Assembly: GCF_000151665.1 (NCBI RefSeq)
Contig: NW_013171828.1
Span: forward strand, 36,817 to 100,816
Direction of reading: 5' to 3'
Origin: Blastocystis hominis
Lineage: Eukaryota; Sar; Bigyra; Opalinata; Blastocystidae
Length of the DNA stretch: 64,000 bases
Part shown: positions 5,331 to 21,962 of the stretch, in pieces
Layout of the letters: each line of letters opens with the position of its first letter
Position numbering within the stretch: the stretch's first letter is position 1
Notes under the pieces: model-generated
Told to the model about the DNA's origin: nothing
The model's input: only the letters and a program-made list of their open reading frames with translations
Databases searched by the model: none
Position numbers and translations under genes: made by a program

Positions 5331-5373
5331 GGGGCAACGTACGTTGCCCCGGGAGGAATCTTCGATTCCTCCC
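5331..5373. repeat. Double-hairpin element 1
   Basis: A perfect 20-bp palindrome (arm GGGGCAACGT) at 5331-5350 is followed directly by a hairpin with 10-bp arms GGGAGGAATC and loop TTC at 5351-5373. It lies between the left terminal repeat and the first gene. No clear flanking direct repeat. Confidence 0.8.
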
Positions 5374-5409
5374 CATTGTCTTGTTGACTAAGGTAAAGAG
5401 AGAAAGACC

Positions 5410-6255
5410 ATGCACTACTCCATGCTTATTCAAGGCTCACCTACCAACGGCTCATTCACCTGGATCAACCCCTACAAGTACAAGAATCCTTATATCACTT
5501 CCATGACTGTCCTGTTTCATCCTAATGGTTCGATGTTTAATAACGTAGACACGACGAATGTGATTACTAACAGCAATGACGAGAAGGTGACAATCCCTGC
5601 TGGTTATTACACGATCAGTGAGATCATTGCCTTGCTCAATACCATGACCGATACTACATTTTCCATATCTACGAATGCCTCGTCGTTCGGCTGTATCTGG
5701 ATTCAGTCTCCACACACCATTGACTTCACAGATGCACCTGATATTCGTGAGATCCTCGGCTTCGATGGACGAACGGTCATTCTACCTGCTTCGTTCAGTG
5801 GATCGAACGTGATTGATATCACGCGAAATCGACAAGTGATTCAGGTCTACTCGACGATCGTGCGATCATCGGACCTGAAGATTGCCAACCAGAACAACAA
5901 CCTGCTCACCACGATGATCATTGACGATCCAACGGCTGACTACGTGCGAACTGTGGAAGACGTGTGTATTCCAATGATCACTCGGTTTGATCAATTGATG
6001 TTCGTGTTCCGCGATATGGATGGCAAGATGATGCGATTGAACGGCGAATTCGAACTCCAGTTGACGATTGAGGACGTGTACGAGCAAAGTGAAAATAGCG
6101 TCACTTCCGCTAATCAGTTCTCCATGATTGAAGTGTTCGGTAATACCACCAAGAAGGAAGTGAACCGCTGGACAATCCTCTCTCGTATACGACCAGTGCT
6201 ACATCTCGTCTGTGTCGTTGTATACGGACTTCGTGTTGCACAACGTGCCGACTGA
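5410..6255 (+). CDS. Polinton structural protein, module A (possible 5' part of a split gene)
   Basis: The 281-residue frame contains a module also found in the next gene and at 8796-9488: IPAGYYTISEIIALLN (about residues 70-85), IDFTDAPDIREILGF (about 103-117), then DITRNRQVIQVYSTI (about 136-150). It ends in a strand-like segment similar to the C-termini of the later copies. The last 30 or so residues of the frame lose the pattern, while the +1 frame, open from 6164, picks it up (YISSVSLYTDFVLHN). So 5410-8470 may be one gene broken by a single-base frameshift, or two genes with overlapping ends. The position among capsid-type genes suggests a virion surface or minor capsid role; the fold is not proven. 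Confidence 0.6.
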   Translation: MHYSMLIQGSPTNGSFTWINPYKYKNPYITSMTVLFHPNGSMFNNVDTTNVITNSNDEKVTIPAGYYTISEIIALLNTMTDTTFSISTNASSFGCIWIQSPHTIDFTDAPDIREILGFDGRTVILPASFSGSNVIDITRNRQVIQVYSTIVRSSDLKIANQNNNLLTTMIIDDPTADYVRTVEDVCIPMITRFDQLMFVFRDMDGKMMRLNGEFELQLTIEDVYEQSENSVTSANQFSMIEVFGNTTKKEVNRWTILSRIRPVLHLVCVVVYGLRVAQRAD

Positions 6256-8470
6256 CCAAGTGGTGCTAATCAATGCTGGCGCTACGATTCAAGAGATCAC
6301 GATACCACGCGGTGCATACGACATCGAAACGATCATTGCAAAGCTGAATGCAAGTGATGCCCTGTTCGAATTGGTGTATAGCGGTGAGAATGCGTTCCAC
6401 ATCACGGTAGATCACTTCTACATGATTGATTTCACGAATGCACCAGAGATCAGGTCGATCCTTGGTTTCGAATCGGACATCTTGGTGAAAGGAGTGGATA
6501 ACCCGAAGCGCTACTACATGTCTTCCTCGTGTAATCACGTGGTTGTTACTGATGACACTGTCTCGCACATGTTGACATTGCCTGTCGGTTACTACACGTT
6601 CTCCGAGTTCATCGAGGCTGTCGGTGCTGAAATGGTGAAAGTGCTTCCACTCACATCCATGACGATCGAGGATGATCATGTTCGCTTCAATGTCCAAGCA
6701 GACGGATGGTATTTCAATCGATCCAGTGTTGACACGACGATCGATGGTTTTGGTTGGACTCCATGGTTCAAGCTGTCTCCATCTGTGCAGAACCTGTGCA
6801 TCGAACGACCAGTGGAAACTTCGTTCAACCCTGAAAGCGATTCCCCACCTGATATGACGAATGATCAAGGTATTGGTGGTCATGCGTATATAGGATCAAA
6901 CACCTTCATTGCGTATGACTGGAAAATGCGTACGAATGATAATCGGTTCCTGCTAAAGCCTCTCGCGACATACACGATGCGCCTAGCTGATGGTTCAGTA
7001 CTCGATAGTGGTGAATTCTACATAACGGACGATACGTCTACCCCGATCAAGATGAATACTCTTACAACCACATGTTTTAATGAACTCAATGCTCGATATG
7101 CGAGTGCTATGGAACTACCTCCATCTCACCAGAATGCGATTGCGTGGACGGTGAATGACAATAGAGAAAGCATGTCATGGACTGCGAAGGACTATGCACC
7201 AGAATTGGAATTGCATATCACATCGGAAAATACAGGTGACTTGGTGTCATCGAATGGTTCTTCGATCGGACCTTGGTATTCCAAGGATAGTATATATCAC
7301 ACGAGAGTGTTTATCGATACGACGAATTTTATACTTGGAATACGTGGATATGGCGAAAGACCTCTCACAATCCAACGAGGTCATTATAGCGCTATTGATA
7401 TCGTGAATATGATCGCTAATGTGATCAATAAGATATTTGTAGATGCATCTCTCGGAAGGTACTTGGTATATGTCATTGCAGATAATGGTGGTCGAGTACG
7501 AATGGGATGTCGAAATGGTACAGAACCACGATTCATATTGTTTTGTGATAATCCATGTTTCAAGATTACACCCGGACCATACGCTGAACCAGGTGGTGTG
7601 TATTTGTCTTGTTATTTCGAGTTTTATCGCAATTACTACATCAGGATGCCCGAGTTGACATCACCTTACGAGTTTGCGATGGCAAACATCGATGGACTGA
7701 ATGTGACGAATATGATCAAAGGTAGTACGTATTCCGATCGTGCTGTGTCGATCGAATTCATACAACCGACACGTGTTACGTATGTCGGTCTTCACCCATC
7801 ATTGAATACCTTTGTTGACTGGGAACAATCTGAGTCGTACACGGCTAACACGACGATTCGCTTCCCGTACGGAATGATGACACTGGACGAAGAGGGAAGC
7901 AGTGCTTCCCCCGAGACTGATATCACTTACACGGATGACATTCAAACACTCACGTGGACCATACCATCACGGTTGACACAGGCTGACATGATATGGCACA
8001 TGAACCAGTGTTTTGACTCGGCTGCACTGAACATACGATGGAAAGCTGAGACAGATGGGTACTACATTCACGCGGACCACGTGTTCTCGTTGAGTGGCAA
8101 CCTGGGAACCATAGTTCCCGCTTCAGGATCGCAATCGCATACATGGCGTATCCCTTTCGACGATGGTGTGTACTATGCCAACTATGGTCCATTGGTTGCC
8201 GAGTATCCTGTCGATATCACGAACGGTCTATCGAACATACAGCTGTATTGCAACATCGTGAAAAGCAAGACGATACCACTGCTTGCGAATGTCCCGATGG
8301 ACAGCTTGTACAAGAATTACTTCTACAAGAATCGCATGTTGGTACCATGTTCTGAATTGCTTGATCGCATCGTGTACGAATTGAAGGATGAAAATGGTGA
8401 CCCGCTATCGTTCATTGGGAACGTGTACCTGCTAATCGGATTCACCGTTTCAGGAGGAAATAATAAATGA
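6164..8470 (+). CDS. Polinton large structural protein with repeated modules
   Basis: The frame is open from 6164. A GTG at 6212 is the first start-like codon, giving 752 residues. It repeats the module of the preceding frame: IPRGAYDIETIIAKLN and IDFTNAPEIRSILGF near the start, LPVGYYTFSEFIEAVG next, IQRGHYSAIDIVNMIANVIN in the middle, and DITNGLSNIQLYCNI near the end. Tandem modules and a beta-rich composition suggest a spike, fibre or vertex protein of the virion. A small hairpin (7894-7910) lies in the coding sequence. The stop TGA overlaps the ATG of the next gene as ATGA at 8467-8470. A normal ATG start is missing, so the true start is uncertain: it could be made by frameshifting from 5410-6255. 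Confidence 0.6.
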   Translation, partial: TAGQSSLVYDQCYISSVSLYTDFVLHNVPTDQVVLINAGATIQEITIPRGAYDIETIIAKLNASDALFELVYSGENAFHITVDHFYMIDFTNAPEIRSILGFESDILVKGVDNPKRYYMSSSCNHVVVTDDTVSHMLTLPVGYYTFSEFIEAVGAEMVKVLPLTSMTIEDDHVRFNVQADGWYFNRSSVDTTIDGFGWTPWFKLSPSVQNLCIERPVETSFNPESDSPPDMTNDQGIGGHAYIGSNTFIAYDWKMRTNDNRFLLKPLATYTMRLADGSVLDSGEFYITDDTSTPIKMNTLTTTCFNELNARYASAMELPPSHQNAIAWTVNDNRESMSWTAKDYAPELELHITSENTGDLVSSNGSSIGPWYSKDSIYHTRVFIDTTNFILGIRGYGERPLTIQRGHYSAIDIVNMIANVINKIFVDASLGRYLVYVIADNGGRVRMGCRNGTEPRFILFCDNPCFKITPGPYAEPGGVYLSCYFEFYRNYYIRMPELTSPYEFAMANIDGLNVTNMIKGSTYSDRAVSIEFIQPTRVTYVGLHPSLNTFVDWEQSESYTANTTIRFPYGMMTLDEEGSSASPETDITYTDDIQTLTWTIPSRLTQADMIWHMNQCFDSAALNIRWKAETDGYYIHADHVFSLSGNLGTIVPASGSQSHTWRIPFDDGVYYANYGPLVAEYPVDITNGLSNIQLYCNIVKSKTIPLLANVPMDSLYKNYFYKNRMLVPCSELLDRIVYELKDENGDPLSFIGNVYLLIGFTVSGGNNK
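7894..7910. repeat. Single hairpin inside the large structural gene
   Basis: 7-bp arms GGGAAGC around loop AGT, same style as the paired elements. It is translated (GSSAS), and the reading frame stays open. Confidence 0.6.
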
Positions 8471-8799
8471 ATCTAGTGTTCAACATTGCTCGAACGTACG
8501 AACATGAATTCACAAGTAACAATCTCATCAAAAGCGACATGGTAATCGACAGAGTGACTATGAAGGGAGAATCGCCTGGCACCTGCCTTGTCCTTGATCG
8601 AGTGAACAACATGCAAGAACGACGACAGTCTCCGTTGGTTGTATTGAACGAGGAGTTTACGGAGAATGCACACATGAACGTCGTGGTACCCAAAAGTCGC
8701 AAATGGTCATTCTCGTTGACCGATAAGACCGGTACAACGATTGCCCTGCCAATGCCGATCACGGTGTGCATTCACTTTCATGTTTTCCAAAGTAAATGA
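8467..8799 (+). CDS. Small conserved-looking Polinton protein, 110 aa
   Basis: Starts at the ATG inside ATGA shared with the preceding gene's stop, and ends in the same way inside the ATG of the next gene (8796-8799). The protein alternates short hydrophobic strands with turns and has no recognised domain. Its place inside a block of structural genes suggests a small virion component. It does not show the GYY/ILGF module of its neighbours. The two 4-base overlaps argue that it is a real gene translated together with the genes on either side. Confidence 0.55.
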   Translation: MNLVFNIARTYEHEFTSNNLIKSDMVIDRVTMKGESPGTCLVLDRVNNMQERRQSPLVVLNEEFTENAHMNVVVPKSRKWSFSLTDKTGTTIALPMPITVCIHFHVFQSK

Positions 8800-9488
8800 A
8801 TCGTGCACTACCAGTGAGTGTGATTAACCACAATACAGTAATTCCGAAGAACAACGAACGATACCATGAAACGTTCAACACAGTGATCATGCCTCGTGAC
8901 CTTGTGTACAAGATCACTTCGATTACGTGCAAGATCGATACAACGTCTCTCTGGAACATTCGTGCAATGAATGTCGTGAAGGTTCAAATGCTGTCAGGGT
9001 TTGAAATGGTGTACAACGTCGGTCCTGGCTACTACTCGATTACCGAGTTATGCCGTGCGATAGCCGATTCCATCCAGGTAGACGATGTCAACCGAGCATA
9101 CCTGAACAGTGACGTGGCGACCGCTGTTGACCTTAGTGGCGCACCTGATTACACGAGTATCCTCAAGTTGGAAGGTGTCGTTGAGGCAGGTATGGTAGCG
9201 ACTGAACCCTACGACATTACGAATGGCATGAGTGTGATCCGAGTCTACAGTAGTATCAATGCTCAAACATTTGGTCTGAAGAGTCCGCTGATCGATAACC
9301 TGATTCATGTATCGATGGGACTGAACAACATGATCACCTGGGACAACCTATCGATCGATGTGATTGAACAATCGAACCTGGACTACATTGACTGGGTACT
9401 GACGGACGCGAATGACAATCCGATCTCATTGAATTCGAATGTGTACATCTCATTCACGATTTCGTGTTATTCGAAAGAGACAAAGTAA
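8796..9488 (+). CDS. Polinton structural protein, single-module paralogue (minor capsid candidate)
   Basis: 230 residues with one copy of the module seen in the two upstream frames: GPGYYSITELCRAIADS (about residues 77-93), DLSGAPDYTSILKLEG (about 112-127) and DITNGMSVIRVYSSI (about 138-152). It ends DANDNPISLNSNVYISFTI, matching the end of the 752-residue protein (DENGDPLSFIGNVYLLIGF). Length and beta-rich pattern would suit a single jelly-roll minor capsid (penton) protein, which Polintons are expected to encode, but this is inference. It starts within the ATGA overlap and is followed by a degenerate hairpin at 9493-9514. Confidence 0.6.
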   Translation: MNRALPVSVINHNTVIPKNNERYHETFNTVIMPRDLVYKITSITCKIDTTSLWNIRAMNVVKVQMLSGFEMVYNVGPGYYSITELCRAIADSIQVDDVNRAYLNSDVATAVDLSGAPDYTSILKLEGVVEAGMVATEPYDITNGMSVIRVYSSINAQTFGLKSPLIDNLIHVSMGLNNMITWDNLSIDVIEQSNLDYIDWVLTDANDNPISLNSNVYISFTISCYSKETK

Positions 9489-9535
9489 AGAAGGGGAGAC
9501 GGCAAAGTCGCCCCACATTGTTCCTCCCATAGTAA

Positions 9536-11632
9536 ATGGATGAATACGTTGCTACAATTCCAATCATTCGATACAAGCCACACAAAGTGAAGTCGAGAAA
9601 CATGATGGACAAAATGTTGAATCGATATTTCGATAAAGTTGTTGAAGATGAATATAATCAACAGCGAATGAGGAGCGAACAATGGCGACAGAAGCGAACC
9701 TTGTTTGATTCATACATGAATCTCTCACCTGCTGAACGTCGTCGTGTATCCGTCTCCGACATGCGTGGATATCAAATGCAGCGAATTGATAATGAGAACG
9801 TGCTGTTGTACTCATTCGAGGACAACGTGGTCTACAATGCTAAAATTGACAATAAGTTCAACAAGATCATTGTTCAGTCTGTGAATCACGAGTTGTCTGA
9901 TATGGAGAAACGAGCTATCTTTGATAATCCATTTGGATATGAACCTGTATCACCCTATCGTATCCGCTACCAGAGATCACAGGTTGGCGATGCACAAATC
10001 GTGAATATAACTGGTGATCTTGGAACTAGCATCAACGAAATGAAGAATGCTGCTGATGCCATAACGGTTGCAGCTCAACAGATGGGAGATAGTATCAACA
10101 CAGTTACTCAACAGAATGCAGCGATTATCAATGATTTTGCTGGCTTGCGAGACGATGTGACAGAACAAGGTGATCCAAATCGAGATGTCCTGTATTGGAA
10201 TGACGATAATACTACGGCATATAAAAGAGGTGTGACACACACTACGAAACGAGGTAGTACGAAATATAGAGATTTGGTAGCTGAAGGTCGCGTTGAACGT
10301 GATCGGTGGTTGATCAAACCTGAACAACAACCTCTGAATGTGACGAATCAGATCGTACAACAGATGGATGTGACGTCCATTATCACCAAGTTGGATGAAG
10401 TGATTGCTGTGATGAACAGCTTTGATATCCAGGTGAACCTTGGCAATATTTATGGAGCAATAGCTTATGTAGCACAACGAATCAATTTCCTGGAAGATAA
10501 GGACAAGGGTTATCCTAAGATGTTAGAATTGTTGGAAGGTGTACAAACAAAATTGACAAATACGAACGATGGAATCAAGTCGTTGAGTGATAAGTATGCT
10601 GAAGTGGCAACAAGCATTGCAACAGGAGATGACAATTTGATCCAGAAAATTGGTGACTTGGTAAATCAACAGAAGGCTGTGATTGAGGAGAGTAATAGAT
10701 ATCTGCAAGGAGTCGAAGCTCGTCTCCAAGGAATTGAAAACAAACCTGATCCTCCTGCAATTGCTGATATCCAAGCATTGATTCCAACCCAAAGTGAAAT
10801 ACGAATCGATGGATTGACAGAGTTCATGAAGGCGCAGTACAATGATTTCTTGAAACAATGGCTAGAGCGAAACAGCTTCATTCAGCAATTCGTATCTGCT
10901 GAGTTGGCAAAAGCATATGATGAAATCAACAAACGGTTGGTTGAATCATTCAATACATTCACACCTTTGATTCAAAACGTGTCCAATGAATTGCAGACTA
11001 CGAATCAGAATCTGCTAGCTCTTGGTAATGCGGTTGCAGAAGAGGGAAAGGCAACTAGGAAACAACTATTGGATGGTACGAATGCTCTGGGCAACCAATA
11101 TGAACAAGGACAAGCTCAAACAACCAAGTTAATCAAAGATTCTACGGGTGCAATTGTTGATCAACTTGCTGACAATCAGACTAAAACTGGTAACCTGTTG
11201 ACAAATGGATTCACTACCATGGGTAATCAACTTACTGATAATCAGACTCAAACTAACAACCTGTTGACAGATGTTGGTAATGCAGTTGTTGATGGACATG
11301 CTCAAACTGGTCAGCTGCTTACTACAATGAGTAATCAATTTGCTAATACTCAGCTGTCCCGGGAACAATTATATCAACAATTGTATCAGCAGAATATGAG
11401 AGGAATCCAGAACTTAATGGATGCCATTTGGCAATCATATGAATATTTCCGGAATCAGCCACAAATTCAACCTGTGATTGTACTGGACGGTCGTCAATCT
11501 GAAAGTGTAAATGCTAGTTTCACACCTCAAGCAATCGATCAAGTGAATCGAGCTGCAGCCTTGATTGACGCGTATGAAAGTAAAGATTCTAATTCCACCA
11601 AGGAAAGTTGGGAAAGCGATGATACTCGCTAA
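9536..11632 (+). CDS. Long fibrous protein with Asn-Gln-Thr-rich repeats
   Basis: 698 residues. The N-terminal 140 or so are basic and globular-looking. The rest is largely predicted helix with heptad-like spacing, for example KAVIEESNRYLQGVEARLQG. A tandem segment at roughly residues 500-610 repeats the pattern DNQT-T-NLL and GNQ, as in LADNQTKTGNLLTNG and LTDNQTQTNNLLTDV. Such repeats are typical of trimeric coiled-coil shafts of fibres or tails. No enzyme motif is visible. The frame ends with TAA at 11630-11632, but the same frame is open again for 102 codons directly afterwards (see next entry). Confidence 0.6.
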   Translation: MDEYVATIPIIRYKPHKVKSRNMMDKMLNRYFDKVVEDEYNQQRMRSEQWRQKRTLFDSYMNLSPAERRRVSVSDMRGYQMQRIDNENVLLYSFEDNVVYNAKIDNKFNKIIVQSVNHELSDMEKRAIFDNPFGYEPVSPYRIRYQRSQVGDAQIVNITGDLGTSINEMKNAADAITVAAQQMGDSINTVTQQNAAIINDFAGLRDDVTEQGDPNRDVLYWNDDNTTAYKRGVTHTTKRGSTKYRDLVAEGRVERDRWLIKPEQQPLNVTNQIVQQMDVTSIITKLDEVIAVMNSFDIQVNLGNIYGAIAYVAQRINFLEDKDKGYPKMLELLEGVQTKLTNTNDGIKSLSDKYAEVATSIATGDDNLIQKIGDLVNQQKAVIEESNRYLQGVEARLQGIENKPDPPAIADIQALIPTQSEIRIDGLTEFMKAQYNDFLKQWLERNSFIQQFVSAELAKAYDEINKRLVESFNTFTPLIQNVSNELQTTNQNLLALGNAVAEEGKATRKQLLDGTNALGNQYEQGQAQTTKLIKDSTGAIVDQLADNQTKTGNLLTNGFTTMGNQLTDNQTQTNNLLTDVGNAVVDGHAQTGQLLTTMSNQFANTQLSREQLYQQLYQQNMRGIQNLMDAIWQSYEYFRNQPQIQPVIVLDGRQSESVNASFTPQAIDQVNRAAALIDAYESKDSNSTKESWESDDTR

Positions 11633-11938
11633 GATTTCATTGCTTTCTCAAGTTTGCTTGCTCGCAATTTCAACAATCCTGTTTTCGCTCAATTCGCAAA
11701 TGACCTTGGATTCTCACATCTCTTCAGGGCTTATCGTGATCGAAATGAAGACCCCGAACTGATGAGTTTCTTCATACGAGTAGCTAATAGTAAGGATCTA
11801 ACTCCTGATTATTTGGACTACATGAAAAACAAGATCAAACGGTTTGCTGTCAATGTGGATCAACAATTCGAGCAATATCTGCAAAATACGTACAACACGA
11901 TCAAGGATATGTTCGTTACACAGGGTTTCAATGGCTAA
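11633..11938 (+). CDS. In-frame continuation of the fibrous protein after a single TAA
   Basis: Directly after the TAA at 11630, in the same reading frame, about 101 codons are open and protein-like (LARNFNNPVFAQFANDL, DLTPDYLDYMKNKIKRF). There is no early ATG; the first lies near 11762. Possible readings are stop-codon readthrough, a nonsense mutation that split one gene of about 800 codons, or a separate protein from a non-ATG start. No homology recognised. Confidence 0.4.
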   Translation, partial: DFIAFSSLLARNFNNPVFAQFANDLGFSHLFRAYRDRNEDPELMSFFIRVANSKDLTPDYLDYMKNKIKRFAVNVDQQFEQYLQNTYNTIKDMFVTQGFNG

Positions 11939-11976
11939 TGAATATATCTTTGATCTTCTTTTCACTTTGTAGGCAT

Positions 11977-12015
11977 GGGGCACGAAGTGCCCCCGGGGAA
12001 ATCTACGATTTCCCC
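11977..12015. repeat. Double-hairpin element 2
   Basis: Hairpin with 7-bp arms GGGGCAC, loop GAA (11977-11993), then hairpin with 9-bp arms GGGGAAATC, loop TAC (11995-12015). It lies in the intergenic gap just upstream of the pVI-like gene's ATG. No clear direct repeat. Confidence 0.8.
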
Positions 12016-12023
12016 ATACATAA

Positions 12024-13073: not shown

Positions 13074-13096
13074 GTAGGCTCTACAAGCATGGATAC

Positions 13097-13486: not shown

Positions 13487-13527
13487 GGGGAGTCTTCGAC
13501 TCCCCGGGGGCACTACGTGTCCCCTTC
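13487..13527. repeat. Double-hairpin element 4, after the protease gene
   Basis: Arms GGGGAGTC, loop TTC (13487-13505), then arms GGGGGCAC/GTGTCCCC with one G-T mismatch, loop TAC (13506-13524). Direct repeats TGTAA flank it (13482-13486, which contains the protease stop, and 13528-13532). Confidence 0.8.
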
Positions 13528-14567: not shown

Positions 14568-16050
14568 CCCAAAGTAAACATGGCTGTCCTTTTTTACTTT
14601 GGAGGCAACGTTGTCGCCTCGGGAGAGAAACATAGTTTCGCCCCTCTTTGGCCATCACGGTTATGCCAAGTCGTACTTGGAACGCAATCCTTTGCCTTTC
14701 TTCTGCTTGGTAGAAGTGTCGCTTGTGTAGTGAGGGAAAGGCTTTGCCTCCCCCGGGGCAACGAAGTTGCCCCTCATAGTTTGCCACGCCATCTCTCGGC
14801 TTTTGTACGAACTGGAATTCCTTGGTGTTGATGGCTTTGCTGTAGTCCTGTGGTTTGATTTCAACGGCTTCTTTGATGTCCAAGAGATTGTACGTGCGTG
14901 CCTTATTCACTTTGGTCTTCTTATTGTCGGAAGTGCGTCCAAGTTCCTCTTCGAGTTGCTGCACTTGTCGTTGCTTCTCTTCCACTTCTTTGCGTTTTCG
15001 TTCATCACTCAATGCCTTCGGTAACTTCGATCGCATCTTGTTGATCGCTTGTTGTTTGCTACTCAGTTCGTATGGGACGTACTCGACCAGCGAATCGTCA
15101 TCCAGGTAGTACCATCGTGTGTGTATGCCCATCTGGATATCACGAAGTACCTCGGATAGATTACTCGGTGGTGGTATCTTCATTTTGCGCCACAAATCCT
15201 CTCGTCCAAGGATATCGTAGTACAAGAAGATTCGAGTGGCGTTGTCCAGGATCTTGTTGCTCAAGTGAGTGAATCCTTGGAATGCAATGAAACAACTCGT
15301 CTTCCGATGTCGACTCATGCAAGCCATGGTGTCCATGAAGTTCACCACCCAGTGATCGTTCGGCTTCGTATATAAATCGTCGAAGATGTAGATGGAGGGG
15401 TATGTGGTGTCGTTGTAGATCGCCACACTTGATCCATCGTCATTCAATTGTTTGTACGCGACGTCCTCGCTATCCGTGAACGGGGGAATCTCCGATCCCC
15501 CTCCGTCCGTGTTGATCCATTGTGTCTTGATGCCTGCTTTGTTGGCGACATGTTTGAGCACTTGTGGACACTTGTTTTCATAGCTGACCTTTCCCATGAA
15601 GAAACAGATCTTGTCGAACGAGTGAGGTATCTCGTAGCACAACTGATTGATGAGGAACGACTTGCCCGACTTGGAAGGAGCAATGATGAGCGTGAATTGA
15701 TTGAGGAATGTGTCCTGGCAATCAAGTTCCCAATCGAACTTCATAATACCCATGCTTTCCTTGTTCTGTCGAAGATCCTGCAATTGCTCATCAATGGTTT
15801 GCTCTGGTTGGATGTAGTCGGCTAATTCTCGCAGTATTTTGGCATATTGCTTGCTCTTCTCTTCATCGGTTTCATTCTCCATCCGTTGTTTGATGGTATC
15901 CTGCATTACTTCGGCTTGATTGAGCGTATTTTCTGTTCTTCTTGTCAATCGTTTGTTGTTATACGGACATCGATGATTGAATCGTCTTATTCGATTCTTA
16001 ATGGCGAGCAATGTTGTATCAATGTTGGGAATGTATGGGGATTCTTCCAT
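14494..16050 (-). CDS. A32-like genome-packaging ATPase, C-terminus altered by a hairpin insertion
   Basis: 518 residues. Walker A is IIAPSKSGKSFL (about residues 122-133) and Walker B is SIYIFDDLY (about 219-227), as in the FtsK-HerA/A32 packaging ATPases of Polintons and large DNA viruses. They would pump the element's DNA into virions. A 27-bp hairpin insertion between the motifs adds 11 codons in frame (GGGSEIPP, about 183-190). Near the C-terminus a double hairpin at 14732-14776 with a 4-bp direct repeat adds 49 bp. After it the frame runs as unlikely sequence to 14494, overlapping the KilA-N gene. Ignoring that insert, the frame would instead end in KKGKGLRSKYDLA with a stop at 14661-14663. 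Confidence 0.8.
   Translation of the reverse strand: MEESPYIPNIDTTLLAIKNRIRRFNHRCPYNNKRLTRRTENTLNQAEVMQDTIKQRMENETDEEKSKQYAKILRELADYIQPEQTIDEQLQDLRQNKESMGIMKFDWELDCQDTFLNQFTLIIAPSKSGKSFLINQLCYEIPHSFDKICFFMGKVSYENKCPQVLKHVANKAGIKTQWINTDGGGSEIPPFTDSEDVAYKQLNDDGSSVAIYNDTTYPSIYIFDDLYTKPNDHWVVNFMDTMACMSRHRKTSCFIAFQGFTHLSNKILDNATRIFLYYDILGREDLWRKMKIPPPSNLSEVLRDIQMGIHTRWYYLDDDSLVEYVPYELSSKQQAINKMRSKLPKALSDERKRKEVEEKQRQVQQLEEELGRTSDNKKTKVNKARTYNLLDIKEAVEIKPQDYSKAINTKEFQFVQKPRDGVANYEGQLRCPGGGKAFPSLHKRHFYQAEERQRIAFQVRLGITVMAKEGRNYVSLPRRQRCLQSKKGQPCLLWANHPSHFANQGQHEPALLLSLFLE
14603..14645. repeat. Double-hairpin element 5, between convergent genes
   Basis: First hairpin GAGGCAAC/GTCGCCTC, loop GTT, one mismatch (14602-14620). 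The second is degenerate (GGGAGAGAAAC...GTTTCGCCCCTC). Direct repeats CTTTGG at 14597-14602 and 14646-14651. It sits beyond the inferred original ATPase stop. Confidence 0.7.
14732..14776. repeat. Double-hairpin element 6, disrupts the ATPase C-terminus
   Basis: A degenerate hairpin (GAGGGAAAGGCTTTGCCTCC) joined to a perfect one with arms GGGGCAAC, loop GAA (14755-14773). Direct repeats TAGT at 14728-14731 and 14777-14780. Insert plus repeat is 49 bp, which shifts the ATPase frame. Confidence 0.85.
15479..15505. repeat. Hairpin element 7, in-frame insertion in the ATPase
   Basis: Single hairpin GGGGGAATC / GATCCCCC, loop TCC, one bulged base. Direct repeats TCCGTG at 15473-15478 and 15506-15511. 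Insert 27 bp plus 6 bp is 33 bp, keeping the frame. Confidence 0.75.
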
Positions 16051-16059
16051 TTATTCATG

Positions 16060-16101
16060 GAGGCAACAAAGTTGCCTCGGGAGGAAGCGTAGCTTCCTCC
16101 C
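16060..16101. repeat. Double-hairpin element 8, upstream of the ATPase
   Basis: Arms GAGGCAAC, loop AAA (16060-16078), then arms GGGAGGAAGC, loop GTA (16079-16101). Both perfect. It lies just 5' of the ATPase ATG and 3' of the next gene. No clear direct repeat. Confidence 0.8.
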
Positions 16102-16159
16102 TCTATGACAACCACGACAGCCAAAGTGAAAAGCTAGTCACAGCAACCACGGTAGCCAT

Positions 16160-16705
16160 TTACAGGAAATCGCAATCGAAGACACTATTCTTATCCTTGA
16201 TTTTGATTTGCGTTGCTGTGAGAGTTGTGTACGAGAACTCGGTGTTTTTGCCGTCCTTATCTTCCTTCATGAACTCCTTGCTTTCTCCGGTTACCACAAG
16301 ATCGATCGTTGCATCCTTGTATTCGCGAAGATCGGCACAGGGCACATTTCGTAGATCGATTTTGATCGGTTTCTTGTCGTTATTCACGATCTTCGTGTTC
16401 GGACTCAATTTCACTTTGAACTGGATCTCGCCATCGTATTCGCTCCACGGCTGATTCTCTCTCTTCGTCTTATCGAGGATTCTTTTGAACACTTCCGATT
16501 GCTCCTTGGGCAGTGTGATGGAGAAAGTGTTGAGCAGTTTCTTCTTGTCTGTTTCGAACTTCGAGTTGTCACCCACGAAAACAATGGTAGCATCGGTGAT
16601 CTTGCACACATACTTAGCCGATTCGCCTTCTTTCTTGAATCCATTCGAAGTGAGAGAAATGTTAGAAGCATTGGAAAGATCGAAAACCTGAATCTTGTTG
16701 CTCAT
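16160..16705 (-). CDS. Unknown Polinton protein, 181 aa
   Basis: Not recognised. The protein is rich in alternating beta-type stretches and charged residues (KYVCKITDATIVFVGD, EIQFKVKLSPNTKIV, ATIDLVVTGESKEF) and ends with an acidic-hydrophobic tail (VFDCDFL). Such a tail and size are seen in some single-stranded DNA-binding proteins of DNA viruses and phages, which would suit a protein-primed replicon, but this is only a suggestion. It lies between the ATPase and the capsid gene on the same strand, each with its own upstream A/T-rich promoter-like region. The start is well placed, 24 bp from a CACTTAAAGATTT box. Confidence 0.5.
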   Translation of the reverse strand: MSNKIQVFDLSNASNISLTSNGFKKEGESAKYVCKITDATIVFVGDNSKFETDKKKLLNTFSITLPKEQSEVFKRILDKTKRENQPWSEYDGEIQFKVKLSPNTKIVNNDKKPIKIDLRNVPCADLREYKDATIDLVVTGESKEFMKEDKDGKNTEFSYTTLTATQIKIKDKNSVFDCDFL

Positions 16706-16727
16706 ATCTATTTATATTTATTTATTG

Positions 16728-16740
16728 AAATCTTTAAGTG
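16728..16740 (-). promoter_or_regulatory. Shared upstream box CACTTAAAGATTT
   Basis: On the minus strand, 24-35 bp before the ATG of the 181-residue gene and followed by an A/T run (AATAAATAAATATAAATAG). The same 13-mer precedes the polymerase gene at 23032-23044. Confidence 0.55.
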
Positions 16741-16750
16741 ATATTAGTTA

Positions 16751-16787
16751 GGCGGAACGAAGTTCCGCCGGGAGGCTTTGCCTCCCA
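16751..16787. repeat. Double-hairpin element 9
   Basis: Arms GGCGGAAC, loop GAA (16751-16769), then arms GGGAGGC, loop TTT (16770-16786). Direct repeats AGTTA at 16746-16750 and 16788-16792. The first hairpin is identical in sequence to the one at 21354-21372. Confidence 0.85.
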
Positions 16788-16830
16788 AGTTACCATACAA
16801 ACCTGCGGCTCCCCTTACGCTCCCACCTGT

Positions 16831-16868
16831 GGGGCAGCATCGCTGCCCCGGGAGCGTTTTACGCTCCC
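16831..16868. repeat. Double-hairpin element 10, at the capsid gene stop
   Basis: Arms GGGGCAGC, loop ATC (16831-16849), then arms GGGAGCGT, loop TTT (16850-16868). The second hairpin includes the last codons and stop of the capsid gene. A 13-bp direct repeat TTACGCTCCCACC lies on both sides (about 16814-16826 and 16859-16871), so the capsid gene's end seems duplicated by the insertion. Confidence 0.7.
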
Positions 16869-18148
16869 ACCGTGTTGGCACGGATCATGATGAGGTGCAT
16901 CTGGGTCGTCGCTGCAACATCCTCTTCCAACTCGATTTCAAACTGGATCTGATTCGCTGCTCGCATCGGGAACCACTCGGCTAACGGGAAGGCAAAGATT
17001 CGGAACTGATTCAACCACGTCTTGTACGTCAACAGCGTGTCGTACTCGTCGGAACGACTATTGCAAAGATAGTCCATCCATTCGAAGAACGTGTGATCAA
17101 TTCCATCAGGTGTGTTCGTGTTGTCCACATTGATGATACGCTTCTGTTCACCAGCGATGTTCAATGAGATACGCTTGAATCGAATGTCCTTGAGAGTCGA
17201 GAAATCGCCATTGTCGTCCGTGAACATCATGAACATCATCTTGACGGGGAAGTTGACCAGCACACGATCATCGATGAAGTTCTGGCCAGAAGGAATACGG
17301 AACGTCTTGGTCATGATCTGGTTCTTCACCAACTGAGTGTCTTCAGGATCGAAGGTCGAATCATCGCTCGTCTTGTAACTGTGATACCAAAGCGTACACG
17401 TGTCGAAATACACACCGGTGAAAGCCGTGGCTGATGGAACAGCGTCCGGACTTGTAGCGGTATTGATTTTGCCAGCATCGATGTAGAAGTATGCATCGTC
17501 GTTCGTGGGATAGATCTGAGCATCCATCTGCGTGAGATTGATGAATCGTTCCTGAGAACAACCTTCGAAGATGTCTGCAAAGTTCACATTGATCGTCGTG
17601 TACGCCGTGGTCGATCCAGGTGGCTGTACGAACTTGAGCATGTTGTAGAATAACTTCCCGCCATAAGGTCGACCCAGGATGGCCGCAGTTCTCGCGGTTT
17701 TATCGGTTGTATCGTAGTCACGGTCATCGTAGTAGATGTAGGACAGTTCCTTCAGTCCTTCGTTTACCACATTGTTGTGCTTGTTGTCCGTGAGTGCATT
17801 CAAGAGTGACCGGATCTGACCGATGTTTTCATTGTCTGCACTCAGAGGCAAGGACGCCAAGTTCTCACCATTCCAATAGGTGTACGTGACCTTCGTGTTG
17901 TTCACAATGCCTGACATGTTCTTCTTCACCGGAACATAGATATCCTTCGACGAACTGCCTGCATTATTTGCCAACCCGGTGATCTTGAGCTTGAAAGTCA
18001 TTCGTGACTTGTAGAGATTGAAGTACACGTCATCACCGGATGGAGCGATCGTCCAATTGATCACATCGGTCGACTTGATGTTATTGGACTGATTGCTGAA
18101 CACAATCTGCGATTCGTAGTTATGCACAGGAGGAATTGTAGTTGCCAT
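16859..18148 (-). CDS. Probable major capsid protein (double jelly-roll type)
   Basis: 429 residues, beta-rich throughout, with no enzyme motif. The start region (FSNQSNNIKSTDVINWTIAPSG) and the final strands (QIQFEIELEEDVAATTQMHL) read like alternating strands of a capsid jelly roll. Length is within the range of Polinton major capsid proteins, and the gene is next to the ATPase block as is usual in such elements. Assignment rests on size, composition and context, not on a recognised signature, so a minor capsid or other virion protein is possible. The start codon is followed upstream by a hairpin at 18157-18180. The stop lies within the second hairpin of element 10. Confidence 0.55.
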   Translation of the reverse strand: MATTIPPVHNYESQIVFSNQSNNIKSTDVINWTIAPSGDDVYFNLYKSRMTFKLKITGLANNAGSSSKDIYVPVKKNMSGIVNNTKVTYTYWNGENLASLPLSADNENIGQIRSLLNALTDNKHNNVVNEGLKELSYIYYDDRDYDTTDKTARTAAILGRPYGGKLFYNMLKFVQPPGSTTAYTTINVNFADIFEGCSQERFINLTQMDAQIYPTNDDAYFYIDAGKINTATSPDAVPSATAFTGVYFDTCTLWYHSYKTSDDSTFDPEDTQLVKNQIMTKTFRIPSGQNFIDDRVLVNFPVKMMFMMFTDDNGDFSTLKDIRFKRISLNIAGEQKRIINVDNTNTPDGIDHTFFEWMDYLCNSRSDEYDTLLTYKTWLNQFRIFAFPLAEWFPMRAANQIQFEIELEEDVAATTQMHLIMIRANTVGA

Positions 18149-18156
18149 TTATTATA

Positions 18157-18180
18157 GGGCGAGAATGAAAATTCTCGCCC
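18157..18180. repeat. Hairpin upstream of the capsid gene
   Basis: 10-bp arms GGGCGAGAAT with loop GAAA, directly joined to the composite element that follows. Confidence 0.8.
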
Positions 18181-18245
18181 GGGGAGCCGCAGGCAGGGAG
18201 GCGACAATGTCGCCTCCGGGAAACCGAAGGTTTCCCAGGCTCCCC
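18181..18245. repeat. Nested double-hairpin: one element inserted into another hairpin
   Basis: The outer arms GGGGAGCC (18181-18188) and GGCTCCCC (18238-18245) form one hairpin with loop GCA if 18195-18240 is ignored. The interior is a 42-bp double hairpin: arms GGAGGCGAC, loop AAT (18197-18217), and arms GGGAAACC, loop GAA (18218-18236). The direct repeat AGGC flanks it at 18191-18194 and 18237-18240. This is the footprint of an insertion into an existing hairpin. Confidence 0.9.
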
Positions 18246-18287
18246 GATTACTACAGGGAGAAAAAACAAATCGTCCCCCATACATAA

Positions 18288-19589
18288 ATGGCAACCACAG
18301 CAGAGAAACTTGTATATCTCCAAAATGGAGTATTCAAACGCAAGGAGATGACGAGTGGTCTCCAGTACTACTCGGATGGTTCTTTCGACACATTCCCATT
18401 ACCGAGTGGGAATGGAAACTACGTGCTCACCAACAACAACAATGTATTCACATGGACCGATGCGGGTGTCGTAGTACCTGACCAGCCTGAAGAGTTCACC
18501 ACGCTCGACAACTCGTACTTCAAAGGCAGCAACAGTCAGGCGATCACCATTGCTGCCAAAGGAACGATTCCATACTTTGTCAACAATAGCACCTTTGGTG
18601 AACTCGATCTGCCGAGTAGTGGCAAGTACTTGCTGAACATGGACGAAAATGGAGGACCTTCATTCTCGACGATCGATGCGAGCACGATCAACACCGCATT
18701 AGGCCTCAACAACACGTCGAACAAGTACGTCATTGCCAACTGGAATTCGACAACGAGCACACGTAAAGACCTAGCCCTGCCAGAACAGTCCGGGACGTAC
18801 ATCTTGAAAGGAACGGAGGCTGGTGCTTTCGGAATTCAGTACACATTCGACACATTGAACGCCTCAACACTCTTCAACGGCGCTCTTGGTCTGCAATCGA
18901 ACAACCTGTGTCTCATTGCTTACAAGGGCAATAGTGCATATGGTGTAACCGTGCCTGCAACGAGTGTTTCTTCCGGTTATTTTGTATTCAAGAAGGCGGC
19001 AAATACTGACGTACCCACAACAAATATCCTTGACTCCAATGTAATCTATAAAGATATTCTTGGATGTACGAATGAAGAACAATGTATCGTCACCAATGAT
19101 AAAACAGGTGTGGGTAAATTAACCATTCCATCAAATCCAGGAACCTACTTGTTGAACGTATCTAGCAGTGGAGTATCCTTTTCGACATCGCCCACCAAGT
19201 TCTCCAAGACGTTCACGTACTCTTGGTCTGGTAGTGGCCACACCGTCGTATCCGAGACACTCGGATCAGCCAATACGAACTTGTCGGAAAATCTCACATT
19301 ATCTTCGAACAGCAAGTACATGGTCACGATCGATTTGAGTCTCAAGTGTGGTAACTACGAGCAGGCACTCGAAGGCTTTAAAACCGCGCCGACCTTGGCA
19401 ATCACTACGATTCGAGCAACATTGCTGAAGACAACACTTGACAACCCGACCCCAACAATGAACGTCTCTGGCACATCTATATTTTCACCGATAAAAGATG
19501 GTGGATTAGAGCTCGTTGTGTCACGCAGTGGTGATACAACCATCTCGCACTTATACTCGAACTTCCAAGTCACGATTGTAGAACTGTGA
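18288..19589 (+). CDS. Fibre- or spike-like protein with short beta repeats
   Basis: 433 residues starting in the context ACATAAATGG. A repeated pattern of the form LPSG-G-Y-LL then a Gly/Asn turn then FST occurs at least four times: SGNGNYVLTNNNNVFTW, SSGKYLLNMDENGGPSFST, QSGTYILKGTEAGAFG and NPGTYLLNVSSSGVSFST. The C-terminal 130 residues form a separate beta-rich region. Composition is high in Ser, Thr, Asn and Gly with few charges. This is typical of receptor-binding fibres with a shaft and a knob. The gene is divergent from the capsid gene, with the nested hairpin between them. No intron or signal peptide is seen. Confidence 0.6.
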   Translation: MATTAEKLVYLQNGVFKRKEMTSGLQYYSDGSFDTFPLPSGNGNYVLTNNNNVFTWTDAGVVVPDQPEEFTTLDNSYFKGSNSQAITIAAKGTIPYFVNNSTFGELDLPSSGKYLLNMDENGGPSFSTIDASTINTALGLNNTSNKYVIANWNSTTSTRKDLALPEQSGTYILKGTEAGAFGIQYTFDTLNASTLFNGALGLQSNNLCLIAYKGNSAYGVTVPATSVSSGYFVFKKAANTDVPTTNILDSNVIYKDILGCTNEEQCIVTNDKTGVGKLTIPSNPGTYLLNVSSSGVSFSTSPTKFSKTFTYSWSGSGHTVVSETLGSANTNLSENLTLSSNSKYMVTIDLSLKCGNYEQALEGFKTAPTLAITTIRATLLKTTLDNPTPTMNVSGTSIFSPIKDGGLELVVSRSGDTTISHLYSNFQVTIVEL

Positions 19590-19627
19590 CGGGACTTCGT
19601 CCCGTCGGGGCAACATAGTTGCCTCCC
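19588..19627. repeat. Double-hairpin element 11
   Basis: Arms GACGGGAC, loop TTC (19588-19606), overlapping the stop codon of the fibre-like gene. Then an imperfect hairpin GGGGCAAC/GTTGCCTCCC, loop ATA. Confidence 0.7.
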
Positions 19628-19645
19628 TACTTTAAGGGACAAAGT

Positions 19646-19683
19646 GGGGCGACAAAGTCGCCCCGGGAAGCCTTCGGCTTCCC
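19646..19683. repeat. Double-hairpin element 12, cleanest example
   Basis: Two perfect hairpins back to back: arms GGGGCGAC, loop AAA (19646-19664), and arms GGGAAGCC, loop TTC (19665-19683). The 7-bp direct repeat ACAAAGT lies immediately on both sides (19639-19645 and 19684-19690). Confidence 0.9.
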
Positions 19684-19728
19684 ACAAAGTGAAATAAGGG
19701 CGACTTGGAAACCATAGCTTCCAGTCTT

Positions 19729-20094
19729 TTACTTTGGCGGTAATCGTTTACCCGATACACATTCGAGTTGATCAAATGCAACACCATCGATATCAATGAT
19801 AATTATATCACCACCTAATGTCATCACACGATGACCTTCGATATCATAGATATTCTCATTGAAAGCACGGAGTTCAGCAAGTCCTCCTACTTCACCCCAC
19901 TTCACTATGTATTTATCATCATTACATGATTTCACAAGAAGATGTTGAAGATCAGGTGAATTTATCATCATATATGGAGGATTATACTCATTATGATAAT
20001 TTGTACCTTTAGGGTCATCAACAAATGAATTAATCATATCATGCACATATTTACGTGTGATATCAAGACGTTCATCATTCATCCAACAGTTCAT
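19729..20094 (-). CDS. Unknown Polinton protein, 121 aa
   Basis: Not recognised. Acidic, with a C-terminal beta-rich part (HRVMTLGGDIIIIDIDGVAF). An A/T-rich region before its start (ATAAATAGAAATACAAATG) resembles other promoters of this element. It lies tail to tail with the fibre-like gene, separated by hairpin elements. Confidence 0.5.
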   Translation of the reverse strand: MNCWMNDERLDITRKYVHDMINSFVDDPKGTNYHNEYNPPYMMINSPDLQHLLVKSCNDDKYIVKWGEVGGLAELRAFNENIYDIEGHRVMTLGGDIIIIDIDGVAFDQLECVSGKRLPPK

Positions 20095-20142
20095 TTGTAT
20101 TTCTATTTATGTTTACATTATTTAAATCTATTTAGGCATCCC

Positions 20143-20334
20143 TCATTTCACTTTAATCTCTGTCGGACTGATCGATATATCACTTCCACTGTCGTCATCG
20201 GATTCATTCTTCTCATTGTACACGCACAGGCAGTGACATCTGTCCTTGCATTTCGAGTCAACCACTAGCTTGTGGTTCTTTCTTCCACTCATCCATTTCC
20301 ATGCACTTTTCAGCCATTGAATAAAGCGGTTCAT
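20143..20334 (-). CDS. Small Cys-containing unknown protein, 63 aa
   Basis: The N-terminal 20 residues are basic and Trp-rich (MNRFIQWLKSAWKWMSGRK), possibly an amphipathic membrane-binding helix. A Cys cluster follows (CKDRCHCLC) and then an acidic Ser-rich tail. Its ATG is only 2 bp from the integrase ATG on the opposite strand. It may be a minor virion protein, or a chance frame; support is limited to composition and start context. Confidence 0.35.
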   Translation of the reverse strand: MNRFIQWLKSAWKWMSGRKNHKLVVDSKCKDRCHCLCVYNEKNESDDDSGSDISISPTEIKVK

Positions 20335-20336
20335 TT

Positions 20337-21440
20337 ATGAACGAGATCAAGGAACTAAGGAAACCAGCCAAGCGAAAAGGTGCAACTCGAGTGATCATCA
20401 GTTCATTCAAGAGAAACATATACTTCATCGATCTCATCGATTTCTCTTCCAAACAAGACAAATGGATTCAGGAAGTGTTGGGCAGACAGAAGAGTACAGG
20501 ATTCCACAAGAATCGTGGATACAAGTATGTCCTTGTATGCATTGATGGATATTCGAAATACCTGATGGCTCGGCGACTGAAGAGCAAGAGTGCCACAGAA
20601 GTCACTCATGCAATGAAGGATATCATTCAAACATACGGTGCACCAAAGCATATTTGCTCTGATCGAGGCACCGAGTTCACCAATGCCATCTTTCGTACCA
20701 ACATCTTGGACAAGTATGACATCACCATGTATCACATGGATTCAGCGAATAAAGCAGTACTAGCCGAACGAGCAATCCGAGATATCAAGGAAGACATCAT
20801 GGTTCCATTCAATCAATCGAAAGGTGTATGGTTCGACTTGATTGATGGTGCGGTTCGTAGACACAATGCAAGGAAGAACAGAGACACCGGATATACACCA
20901 AATGACATTTGGAACAACAACATCTTGTACACGGAGAAGACAGAACCATCCAACATGACAGCGAAGGACACGACGCCTCAATTCGATGTGGGTGATTATG
21001 TTCGAGTGACACGAAGACCTCGCGTTCTGGAAAAGCGATCATTGACGAGCAAATGGTCTCAGGACTTGTATGAAGTTGTTGACATTGACGATCGATTCAT
21101 GCCATTGATGTACGAAGTGAAGAATATGGAAAGCGGTAGCAAGCAGAAGTGCTATCATTGGGAACTCCTGGCAAGCAAATGCAAACCACAGCCAGCACCA
21201 CCAGTCACGCGATCCAAGAGTCGAAAGGAACCCAATGCATTGCGAGATGCAGCAAGGTCACATCGACCCATTACGAGGAGCCAGAATGGGACGACTTCGT
21301 GGGAAGCCTCCGCTTTTCCCGGGGGCGATGTACATCGCCCCCTTCGTCGTCCAGGCGGAACGAAGTTCCGCCACAGAAGAAGCAGAAGAAGCGTCCCCAA
21401 GATGTTCGAAAACGATCGTAATGCTCTTTACACCACCTAG
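20337..21440 (+). CDS. Retroviral-type (rve) integrase of the Polinton
   Basis: 367 residues. The DDE triad is visible: Asp in YFIDLIDF (about residues 32-35), Asp in ICSDRGTEF (about 110) and Glu in VLAERAIRDIKE (about 144). A C-terminal SH3-like domain follows (FDVGDYVRVTRRPRVL, about 220-285), then a basic tail. The family inserts the element by strand transfer, usually giving 5-6 bp target duplications. No HHCC zinc finger is seen at the N-terminus. A double-hairpin insertion at 21301-21342 shifts the frame near the C-terminus. Without insert and one repeat, the tail would end QKKQKKRPQDVRKRS at 21421. The catalytic core is upstream and intact. Confidence 0.85.
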   Translation: MNEIKELRKPAKRKGATRVIISSFKRNIYFIDLIDFSSKQDKWIQEVLGRQKSTGFHKNRGYKYVLVCIDGYSKYLMARRLKSKSATEVTHAMKDIIQTYGAPKHICSDRGTEFTNAIFRTNILDKYDITMYHMDSANKAVLAERAIRDIKEDIMVPFNQSKGVWFDLIDGAVRRHNARKNRDTGYTPNDIWNNNILYTEKTEPSNMTAKDTTPQFDVGDYVRVTRRPRVLEKRSLTSKWSQDLYEVVDIDDRFMPLMYEVKNMESGSKQKCYHWELLASKCKPQPAPPVTRSKSRKEPNALRDAARSHRPITRSQNGTTSWEASAFPGGDVHRPLRRPGGTKFRHRRSRRSVPKMFENDRNALYTT

Positions 21441-21962
21441 AAGCATGAGAGGAAGATTCGAATACGTACGAAGGACAGGAGAGTTGTAGGGGGAAGCGTT
21501 GCTTCCCCCAATATTCACAACAGCATAACCAGTATGAGACACAAGACTATTCAATGTATCGATGTACGGTCTGTCTAGGATAGGCGTGTTGTCAAACGTG
21601 ACTAGCACTCGATAACCCTTTTCAACCACCGATTCGATTGACGTGCAATCGTTGAACATGTCTTCAGGAAGGTACGTTATGACAGTCGTGGTTATCAGGT
21701 ACGATCCGGACGGCATAGGCGGCATACCATCACCACCCCACTCGCTATTGAATGATTCGGTAGCTTCTGGCGTGTACTCGAAGACAAATGCTTCGTTCGC
21801 TTTCACGATACAAGCCGCACTCCCCCACGAATATTGAGGAACACCATCCACTGTCTCTCGAATTAGCACATGATGACCGTCCTTTTCTGGCATGTTGATG
21901 AGCATGTTGTCGAGCTTCTTGAACGTGTAGTTGTTTCCATTGCTGCTGAAAATGTACGACAT
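21258..21962 (-). CDS. Unknown Polinton protein, 234 aa, C-terminus in hairpin DNA
   Basis: Not recognised. Starts MSYIFSSNGNNYTFKKL; contains alternating beta segments (GSYLITTTVITYL, GYRVLVTFDNTPIL). The C-terminal 70 or so codons overlap the integrase gene in the opposite direction and run through three hairpins, so the original protein probably ended earlier or elsewhere. A hairpin at 21489-21509 is translated as GGSNASP. Convergent with the integrase gene. Possibly a virion protein by neighbourhood; no firm function. Confidence 0.5.
   Translation of the reverse strand: MSYIFSSNGNNYTFKKLDNMLINMPEKDGHHVLIRETVDGVPQYSWGSAACIVKANEAFVFEYTPEATESFNSEWGGDGMPPMPSGSYLITTTVITYLPEDMFNDCTSIESVVEKGYRVLVTFDNTPILDRPYIDTLNSLVSHTGYAVVNIGGSNASPYNSPVLRTYSNLPLMLLGGVKSITIVFEHLGDASSASSVAELRSAWTTKGAMYIAPGKSGGFPRSRPILAPRNGSM
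21301..21342. repeat. Double-hairpin element 13, nested in an older hairpin and in the integrase gene
   Basis: 42 bp: an imperfect hairpin GGGAAGC...GCTTTTCCC (21301-21320) and a perfect 22-bp palindrome with arm GGGGGCGATGT (21321-21342). Direct repeats TTCGT at 21296-21300 and 21343-21347. The outer sequences GGACGAC and GTCGTCC form a hairpin with loop TTC once the insert and one repeat are ignored. Confidence 0.88.
21354..21372. repeat. Single hairpin 14 in the integrase 3' region
   Basis: Arms GGCGGAAC, loop GAA. Identical to the first hairpin of element 9 at 16751-16769, 4.6 kb away. Confidence 0.8.
21489..21509. repeat. Single hairpin 15
   Basis: 9-bp arms GGGGGAAGC with loop GTT, inside the 234-residue minus-strand frame and 48 bp after the integrase stop. 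Confidence 0.8.

Follow-up and report, generated by a model that had tools for sequence, protein, structure and literature searches.

A 64,000-nucleotide stretch of the Blastocystis hominis genome (the window; contig C14, 36817-100816) contains a Polinton, a virus-like element, along which short GC-rich double hairpins are scattered. That these hairpins are mobile is virtually certain, since other copies of the Polinton hold empty alleles of the same sites, short target duplications flank the filled sites, and identical units stand at unrelated sites. Units are found inserted in both orientations, between genes as well as within them (there almost always in frame) and near the loop of older hairpins, and in the places examined they are confined to Polinton DNA. 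Hairpin loops and nested contents flip, and some elements are shortened. The hairpins are probably miniature mobile DNA elements of one non-autonomous family that lives inside Blastocystis Polintons, and a way in which they may move is proposed below. The genome searched was the 18.7 Mb assembly of 40 contigs.

Perfect hairpins with arms of at least 7 bp, loops of 3-4 bases and a GC content of at least 50 % were counted and compared with 60 dinucleotide shuffles. The Polinton (5021-27785) contains 29 such hairpins, against a shuffle mean of 1.03 and a maximum of 4 (a ~28-fold excess), and the interval 5331-21509, where a first-pass annotation made from the sequence alone had placed them, contains 28 (shuffle mean 0.55). 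Chance origin of the hairpins was rejected on these shuffles. Numbers outside the Polinton were those of chance, with 0 hairpins in 1-5000 (shuffles 0.03) and 2 in 28001-64000 (shuffles 1.0). Many hairpins are paired back-to-back without a spacer, so that two adjacent GC-rich hairpins make one unit, often with 8 bp arms and 3-base loops and of ~37-48 bp including extra edge bases; the inserted units listed below are 37-48 bp, plus one single hairpin of 17 bp. Pairing of most hairpins had been claimed in the same annotation. Single-strand DNA folding gave two neighbouring hairpins in each of seven units; the z-scores lie between -3.9 and -8.5 for six of them and at -1.7 for the imperfect unit at 14597. 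In the window 22 of the 29 hairpins begin with GG. Among 394 hairpins in the fetched loci (overlapping, and including the window copy), the loops TTC and GAA account for 133 and most loops are closed by C-G.

Equivalent stretches from other Polinton copies (loci numbered with the prefix L) were aligned to the window copy, and 30 insertion events were picked by hand, of which 29 were tested as exact strings; the event at 19582 offered no simple string and was omitted. An exact empty allele with a single copy of the direct repeat was found among loci in the genome for 25 of these 29 hand-listed events, although for nested events the short empty string may match the same hairpin at another site. 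Repeats of 4-9 bp flank 25 of the 29 (six of 4, eight of 5, six of 6, three of 7, one of 8 and one of 9), compared with repeats of at least 4 bp in 1.3 % of random insertions of the listed elements. An exact empty allele and a repeat of at least 4 bp occur together in 21 events; the events without an exact empty allele are those at 12183 and 13066, one of three at 13495 and one of two at 14597. The mobility inferred in the first-pass annotation is thus upheld by both of the checks suggested there: related Polinton copies do not have the same hairpins at every position, and the flanking repeats far exceed chance.

All nine of the edge repeats given in that annotation are present at the coordinates stated there, and for seven of them other Polinton copies support a reading as target duplications. 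AGTTA at 16745 has exact empty alleles in L033, L045 and L046. ACAAAGT at 19639 is empty in L023, L024, L029, L046 and L047 (the first three with two changes in 31 bases), and CTTTGG at 14597 in five copies (L004 and L015 with three changes). Empty sites also support TTCGT, which is nested in another hairpin (L058, one change), TAGT (L018, five changes) and ACGA (Table 1). For AGGC, likewise nested, a short exact empty match occurs in L047; a longer fuzzy match found none. No literal empty site for TGTAA was found; this repeat is what is left of a duplication of 8 bp, TGTAAGGG, which L013 has in full at 13482 and of which L011 and L018 hold one copy. At the same place (13482-13532), L014, L017, L019 and L020 carry recombinant or shortened hairpins, as if nested elements had swapped arms. 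TCCGTG did not hold as a duplication: L004, L006 and L007 have a longer repeat around TCCGT without a hairpin. The single hairpin there (15479-15505) is found only in the window, aligned copies carrying a different sequence of near-equal length with no clean insertion, and site 15479 was dropped as an insertion.

The Polinton encodes an rve integrase, a type B DNA polymerase and a KilA-N protein (~5.0-27.8 kb; Pfam); the capsid (MCP), pVI-like, protease and packaging ATPase genes are presumed to be such from gene order and motifs. One unit may stand at several sites. The GGGACGAC/GGCGGAAC unit lies in the pVI-like gene with the duplication CGGTG and in the integrase gene with CAGAA (21281), the whole composite site in the latter being empty in L051, L061 and L068. 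The GGCGGAAC/GGGAGGC unit occurs at three sites (16745, nested at 13495 and nested at 21500). The GGGGCGAC/GGGAAGCC unit occurs at 35 genome places, of which 28 map, by distance to the nearest Polinton match, to ~19.6, 19.8-19.9 and 21.3 kb of the Polinton and the other 7 were unmappable; three Polinton copies hold two of these units, and all four combinations of its loops AAA/TTT and TTC/GAA are found. Conversely, one site may receive several units. At 16745 the AGTTA duplication flanks two unrelated elements and, in a third copy, a shortened form of one of them (window copy, L031, L027), at 14597 two different elements share one CTTTGG duplication, and at 13495 three insertions are nested at one tip with the duplications AAGC, AAGCT and AAGCTT, the last of which, a single hairpin, may be a shortened form of the AAGCT insertion. 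Such sites reflect either a strong preference for certain targets or an exchange of hairpins in situ. Other insertions are confined to single copies: that at 12529 is present only in L020, with 18 aligned copies empty, and that at 14705 in L005 alone of the aligned set.

Hairpins of the GGGGCRAC, GGCGGAAC and GGGAAGCC types occur 154, 78 and 75 times in the genome, and the reversed patterns of the three arm families gave 0 occurrences genome-wide. Of 150 listed places (of 307), 146 lie within the 9.2 % of the genome that is covered by spans extrapolated from Polinton matches, and the remaining 4, read directly, are Polinton DNA too; none of the 150 was shown to be chromosomal. The reading of the hairpins as a host-wide repeat was rejected on these grounds, and their absence from host DNA, reported earlier for the window, holds for these places.

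Insertion classes at sites judged to be coding, which lie in several genes, are multiples of three in 29 of 31 cases, the classes not being independent and the gene limits having been set by eye. We infer that selection was acting on the genes of the Polintons when the insertions entered them. Among metagenomic relatives, seen as proteins only, 11-residue words encoded by double hairpins with the arms seen here occur in 10 of 120 listed pVI-like relatives (410 in total), compared with 0 of 85 MCP proteins and 0 of 120 HSP90 proteins. In one of them, P0265, the peptide of the GGGAAGCC/GGGGCGAC unit is flanked by that of the GGCGGAAC hairpin at two places in the protein. Hairpin peptides in proteins of other assemblies argue against an assembly artefact. 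At the nucleotide level, whole double-hairpin patterns had 0 matches in IMG/VR (two patterns) and in prokaryote genomes (one pattern), and no MCP relative was confirmed in IMG/VR. An exact single-hairpin pattern matched at least 120 IMG/VR stretches; with 16 fixed letters and so big a collection, chance and ordinary terminators were judged, without computation, able to give such a number, and the pattern was not used.

Nesting is frequent, with 10 of the 29 events lying inside an older hairpin while hairpins make up 2.5 % of the window Polinton (P about 1e-9). The nested duplications are centred on average 1.9 nt from the apex, all ten within 3.5 nt of the centre of the host hairpin; random placement within the host hairpin would give this with P about 0.003, three of the ten events sharing one hairpin. 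Nested contents are also found inverted (L074 compared with L078) and single loops flip, as is expected from recombination or template switching across palindromes. The excess of nesting as such is less clear than this placement near the apex and is only suggestive, because coding sequence purges insertions and hairpins within genes mark sites that already tolerate them; by our own reading of coding status, 4 of 15 coding events are nested against a hairpin share of 1.2 %.

A mechanism built on a dumbbell, on replication and on cleavage at hairpin tips can be put forward tentatively, its probability falling somewhat short of even. The folded unit would be a nicked dumbbell, with two capped stems end to end and the nick between the unit's two ends, made or exposed during Polinton copying by protein-primed strand displacement. 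Protein-primed polymerases displace single strands, and hairpins should therefore form during Polinton replication. The dumbbell would be captured at a staggered break, often at a hairpin tip. The target duplication would follow because the stagger is filled in after capture, nesting because breaks occur at hairpin tips, and the accumulation of copies in Polintons and not in chromosomes because capture takes place on replicating, extrachromosomal Polinton DNA. Arm diversity would come from re-copying one arm off the other and from hairpin swapping between units. The boldest form of this proposal, which we consider rather doubtful, is that the units are gene-less, closed-end dumbbell parasites of ~40 nt that multiply only on replicating Polinton DNA and prefer hairpin tips, including those of their own kind. 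If true, it would amount to a new way for DNA to transpose, with structure in place of sequence as the guide and Russian-doll nesting as the outcome. The family would also be an example of mobile DNA that lives only within a virus-like element and supplies in-frame peptides to the genes of that element.

Several observations weigh against this account of mobile double hairpins and the way they move. The 29 events were chosen by hand, and repeats are shorter than 4 bp at 16118, 12317, 21662 and 13266, one of these four having none. An automatic collection gave 289 indel classes of at least 15 bp (136 mostly hairpin, 107 hairpin-free and 46 with a minor hairpin share, set aside); a flanking repeat of at least 4 bp was present in 49 of the 136 mostly-hairpin classes and no repeat in 47, partly since alleles differ by several changes, and 29 of the 107 hairpin-free classes also have repeats of at least 4 bp. 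The zero-repeat class is inflated by misplaced gaps and nearby changes, and it was therefore that events were listed by hand and tested as exact strings. Some of the empty alleles could be deletions. At 12276 (L008, L014) the host sequence GGGGCGACC equals one arm of the inserted hairpin, so that insert-free copies may be deletion products retaining half a hairpin, and because of this the site was kept outside the 29 events. Insertion classes at non-coding sites are multiples of three in 33 of 47 cases too, partly from misjudged gene limits, several of the classes near 13.07 and 16.06 kb probably being coding. Non-coding events are nested in 6 of 14 cases against a hairpin share of 23 % (P 0.08), and where the same unit is nested at one and the same tip, ectopic gene conversion could be responsible. 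Pfam searches of 17 distinct Polinton open reading frames returned only KilA-N, the rve integrase, the B-family polymerase and sub-threshold matches, with no mobilising enzyme recognised. The dumbbell, its link to replication and cleavage at tips are, moreover, steps that we infer.

The strongest rival, though unlikely, would have the Polinton's rve integrase mobilise the double hairpins as minimal substrates. It is the sole recombinase recognised in the Polinton, and confinement to Polintons would follow naturally. Integrases of this type usually make one fixed duplication length, whereas duplications here vary from 4 to 9 bp, and the unit ends (GGG...CCC) are by eye unlike the Polinton termini (AGTAGTAGG). 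Rather improbable, too, is derivation from an autonomous DNA transposon that escaped notice, in the manner of miniature inverted-repeat transposable elements (MITEs), or movement by a single-strand transposase of HUH/REP type encoded elsewhere. MITEs are typically longer than the 38-bp unit and have target duplications of fixed length, whereas 25 of the listed events here have 4 to 9 bp and four have less; HUH elements are not known to make a target duplication at all. No longer relative with these hairpin ends was noticed in the loci read, where no dedicated search was made, and it also speaks against such an origin that none of the 150 listed places was shown to be chromosomal. In its favour, the units are short, palindromic, high-copy and gene-less, like MITEs and the bacterial repetitive extragenic palindromes (REPs) described in PMC2817692 and PMC10969869.

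Movement through an RNA copy is improbable: such a route is proposed for mitochondrial hairpin elements of Allomyces (PMC2800124) and in part for yeast GC clusters (PMC4478555), but the listed events show no poly(A) tail at their edges and confinement to Polintons would go unexplained unless reverse transcription were local. It is very improbable that the hairpins spread only by recombination and gene conversion between Polintons, with the flanking repeats as microhomologies of later deletions and the empty sites false. The repeat-flanked hairpin-free indels, the plain flips and swaps of hairpins and the deletion-like site 12276 would suit such a history; yet in the listed events the edges of the difference are the edges of the hairpin, the insertions at 12529 and 14705 are found in single copies, and one unit stands in different genes with different duplications (CGGTG and CAGAA). 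Giant-virus 3'-end hairpins would be expected after most genes and in all copies. A conserved role of this kind, in which the hairpins signal the ending or processing of Polinton transcripts as those of mimivirus and other large viruses do, was rejected as highly improbable. Several hairpins do stand in intergenic DNA or immediately after a stop codon, and hairpins are said to regulate giant-virus transcription (PMC5799277, citing Byrne 2009). Presence here is nevertheless polymorphic even between closely similar copies and comes with target duplications, many hairpins lie within genes, almost always in frame, and there are nested copies and identical units at unrelated sites.

The elements of the window Polinton are listed in Table 1. 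The hairpin at 21489 is probably a double hairpin shortened at a C run.

Table 1 The Polinton of the window and the hairpin elements found in it
Feature	Position	Strand	Remarks
Polinton carrying double hairpins	5021..27785	.	Terminal inverted repeats near 5021-5320 and 27590-27785; limits set by eye
Double hairpin near left terminal repeat	5331..5373	.	Other copies have further double hairpins nested inside, in either orientation
Double hairpin just before pVI-like gene	11977..12015	.	From sequence; no empty allele found or looked into closely
Double hairpin, ACGA duplication, in frame in pVI-like gene	12183..12228	.	No exact empty allele; L009 empty with four changes
Double hairpin at stop codon of protease-like gene	13482..13532	.	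Original duplication TGTAAGGG in L013
Imperfect double hairpin, CTTTGG duplication	14597..14651	.	Different element at this site in other copies
Double hairpin, TAGT duplication	14728..14780	.	From sequence and copy alignment
Single hairpin, TCCGTG repeat	15473..15511	.	Insertion not supported by aligned copies
Double hairpin, GAGGCAAC/GAGGAAGC type	16060..16101	.	Same type at 14909 in L004
Double hairpin, AGTTA duplication	16746..16792	.	Unrelated element in L031 and shortened form in L027, also with AGTTA
Double hairpin, 3' end of capsid-like gene	16831..16868	.	L022 and L028 have another unit in the tip of such a hairpin (TTACGC)
Composite	18157..18240	.	Hairpin 18157-18180 and GGGGAGCC hairpin with nested double hairpin 18195-18236, AGGC duplication
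Double hairpin at gene end	19588..19630	.	Absent from L023 and L029
Double hairpin GGGGCGAC/GGGAAGCC, ACAAAGT duplication	19639..19690	.	33-place pattern of the unit, 35 genome occurrences
Composite in integrase gene	21288..21372	.	GGGACGAC/GGCGGAAC double hairpin with second double hairpin nested in first loop (TTCGT)
Single hairpin	21489..21509	.	Probably a shortened form of the double hairpin of L056 and L060 (GTTG duplication)

A TTYACTTTG-like motif is seen by eye at Polinton gene boundaries, on either strand (11955, 14590, 19730, 23012 and 27582), and is perhaps a promoter or transcript-end signal; the target duplications CTTTGG, ACAAAGT and ACTTTA are similar to it. A second type of palindrome, with three repeats, arms of 9-12 bp and the loop AATT, lies inside the KilA-N gene (13758-13911) and differs among copies. 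To the right of the Polinton a GC-richer stretch (27785-28650) switches abruptly to AT-rich DNA, and the right flank shows no match by eye to the left flank; the window copy may be rearranged at its right end.

Three genome searches with Polinton queries listed 40 matches each and a fourth gave 92 matched pieces, every one of the four drawing on 40 scored candidates. Polinton copies must be numerous, since first-look candidates ranged from 70 to 188 per query, and the family in Blastocystis is large (up to 188 such candidates for one query). A subtype 7 genome has been described as 18.8 Mb with 25 % repeats (PMC3129679). No description of a Blastocystis Polinton family was found in a literature search that did not cover PMC10675990, in which both words are named, and a word search of the main texts of PMC10120064, PMC5608401 and PMC3129679, supplements lying outside it, did not find one either. 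Nor was any description found of such hairpin elements in Polintons, among titles and abstract openings, subscription papers being mostly outside that search. With dozens of Polinton copies in one genome, where filled, empty and nested alleles stand together, the stagger, tip preference, orientation and copying or cutting of the elements can be tested from sequence.

Most of the miniature palindromic elements known so far come from mitochondria and bacteria. The double-hairpin elements of fungal mitochondria consist of two adjacent GC-rich hairpins in one short unit, and the likeness to them drawn in the first-pass annotation is apt in shape and size. In Allomyces and other fungi their numbers differ between related species and they are presumed mobile, and in PMC2800124 they are reported to be without flanking duplications; they are mitochondrial, whereas the present units are nuclear, lie in Polintons, and have mostly 4-9 bp duplications, empty sites and tip nesting. 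The Polinton units are not filed with them because the lack of duplications reported for the Allomyces elements does not extend to events of which 25 of 29 have 4-9 bp. Yeast mitochondrial GC clusters (GC42) are alike in size and in being GC-rich and palindromic, the 42-nt mobile unit showing presence or absence among strains, merging, shuffling and a putative target duplication (PMC4478555); they are mitochondrial with the target AG, whereas the duplications here are longer and varied and the units are confined to Polintons and often lie in reading frames.

Among bacteria, the palindromic elements of Rickettsia, also named in the first-pass annotation, are inserted in frame within protein genes (PMC10969869). 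The comparison stands for the in-frame invasion of unrelated protein genes, as in the coding classes above, and fails for size, the Rickettsia elements being ~150 bp, bacterial and with a conserved peptide, whereas the present units are 37-48 bp, with two hairpins, in a eukaryotic virus-like element. Bacterial REPs are tied to tyrosine transposases and are not known to make target duplications, whereas no such enzyme was seen here and target duplications are present. Both REPs and bacterial interspersed mosaic elements (BIMEs) are short, high-copy and often paired (PMC2817692). The Submariner MITEs of Pandoravirus salinus are miniature elements of a large eukaryotic DNA virus, some of them in protein genes (PMC5799277); they are a family derived from DNA transposons, whereas the elements described here are hairpin pairs with variable arms for which no transposon kinship was shown. 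Set beside these systems, miniature palindromic elements that are nuclear, confined to Polintons, target-duplicating and nested at hairpin tips are read as a new combination.

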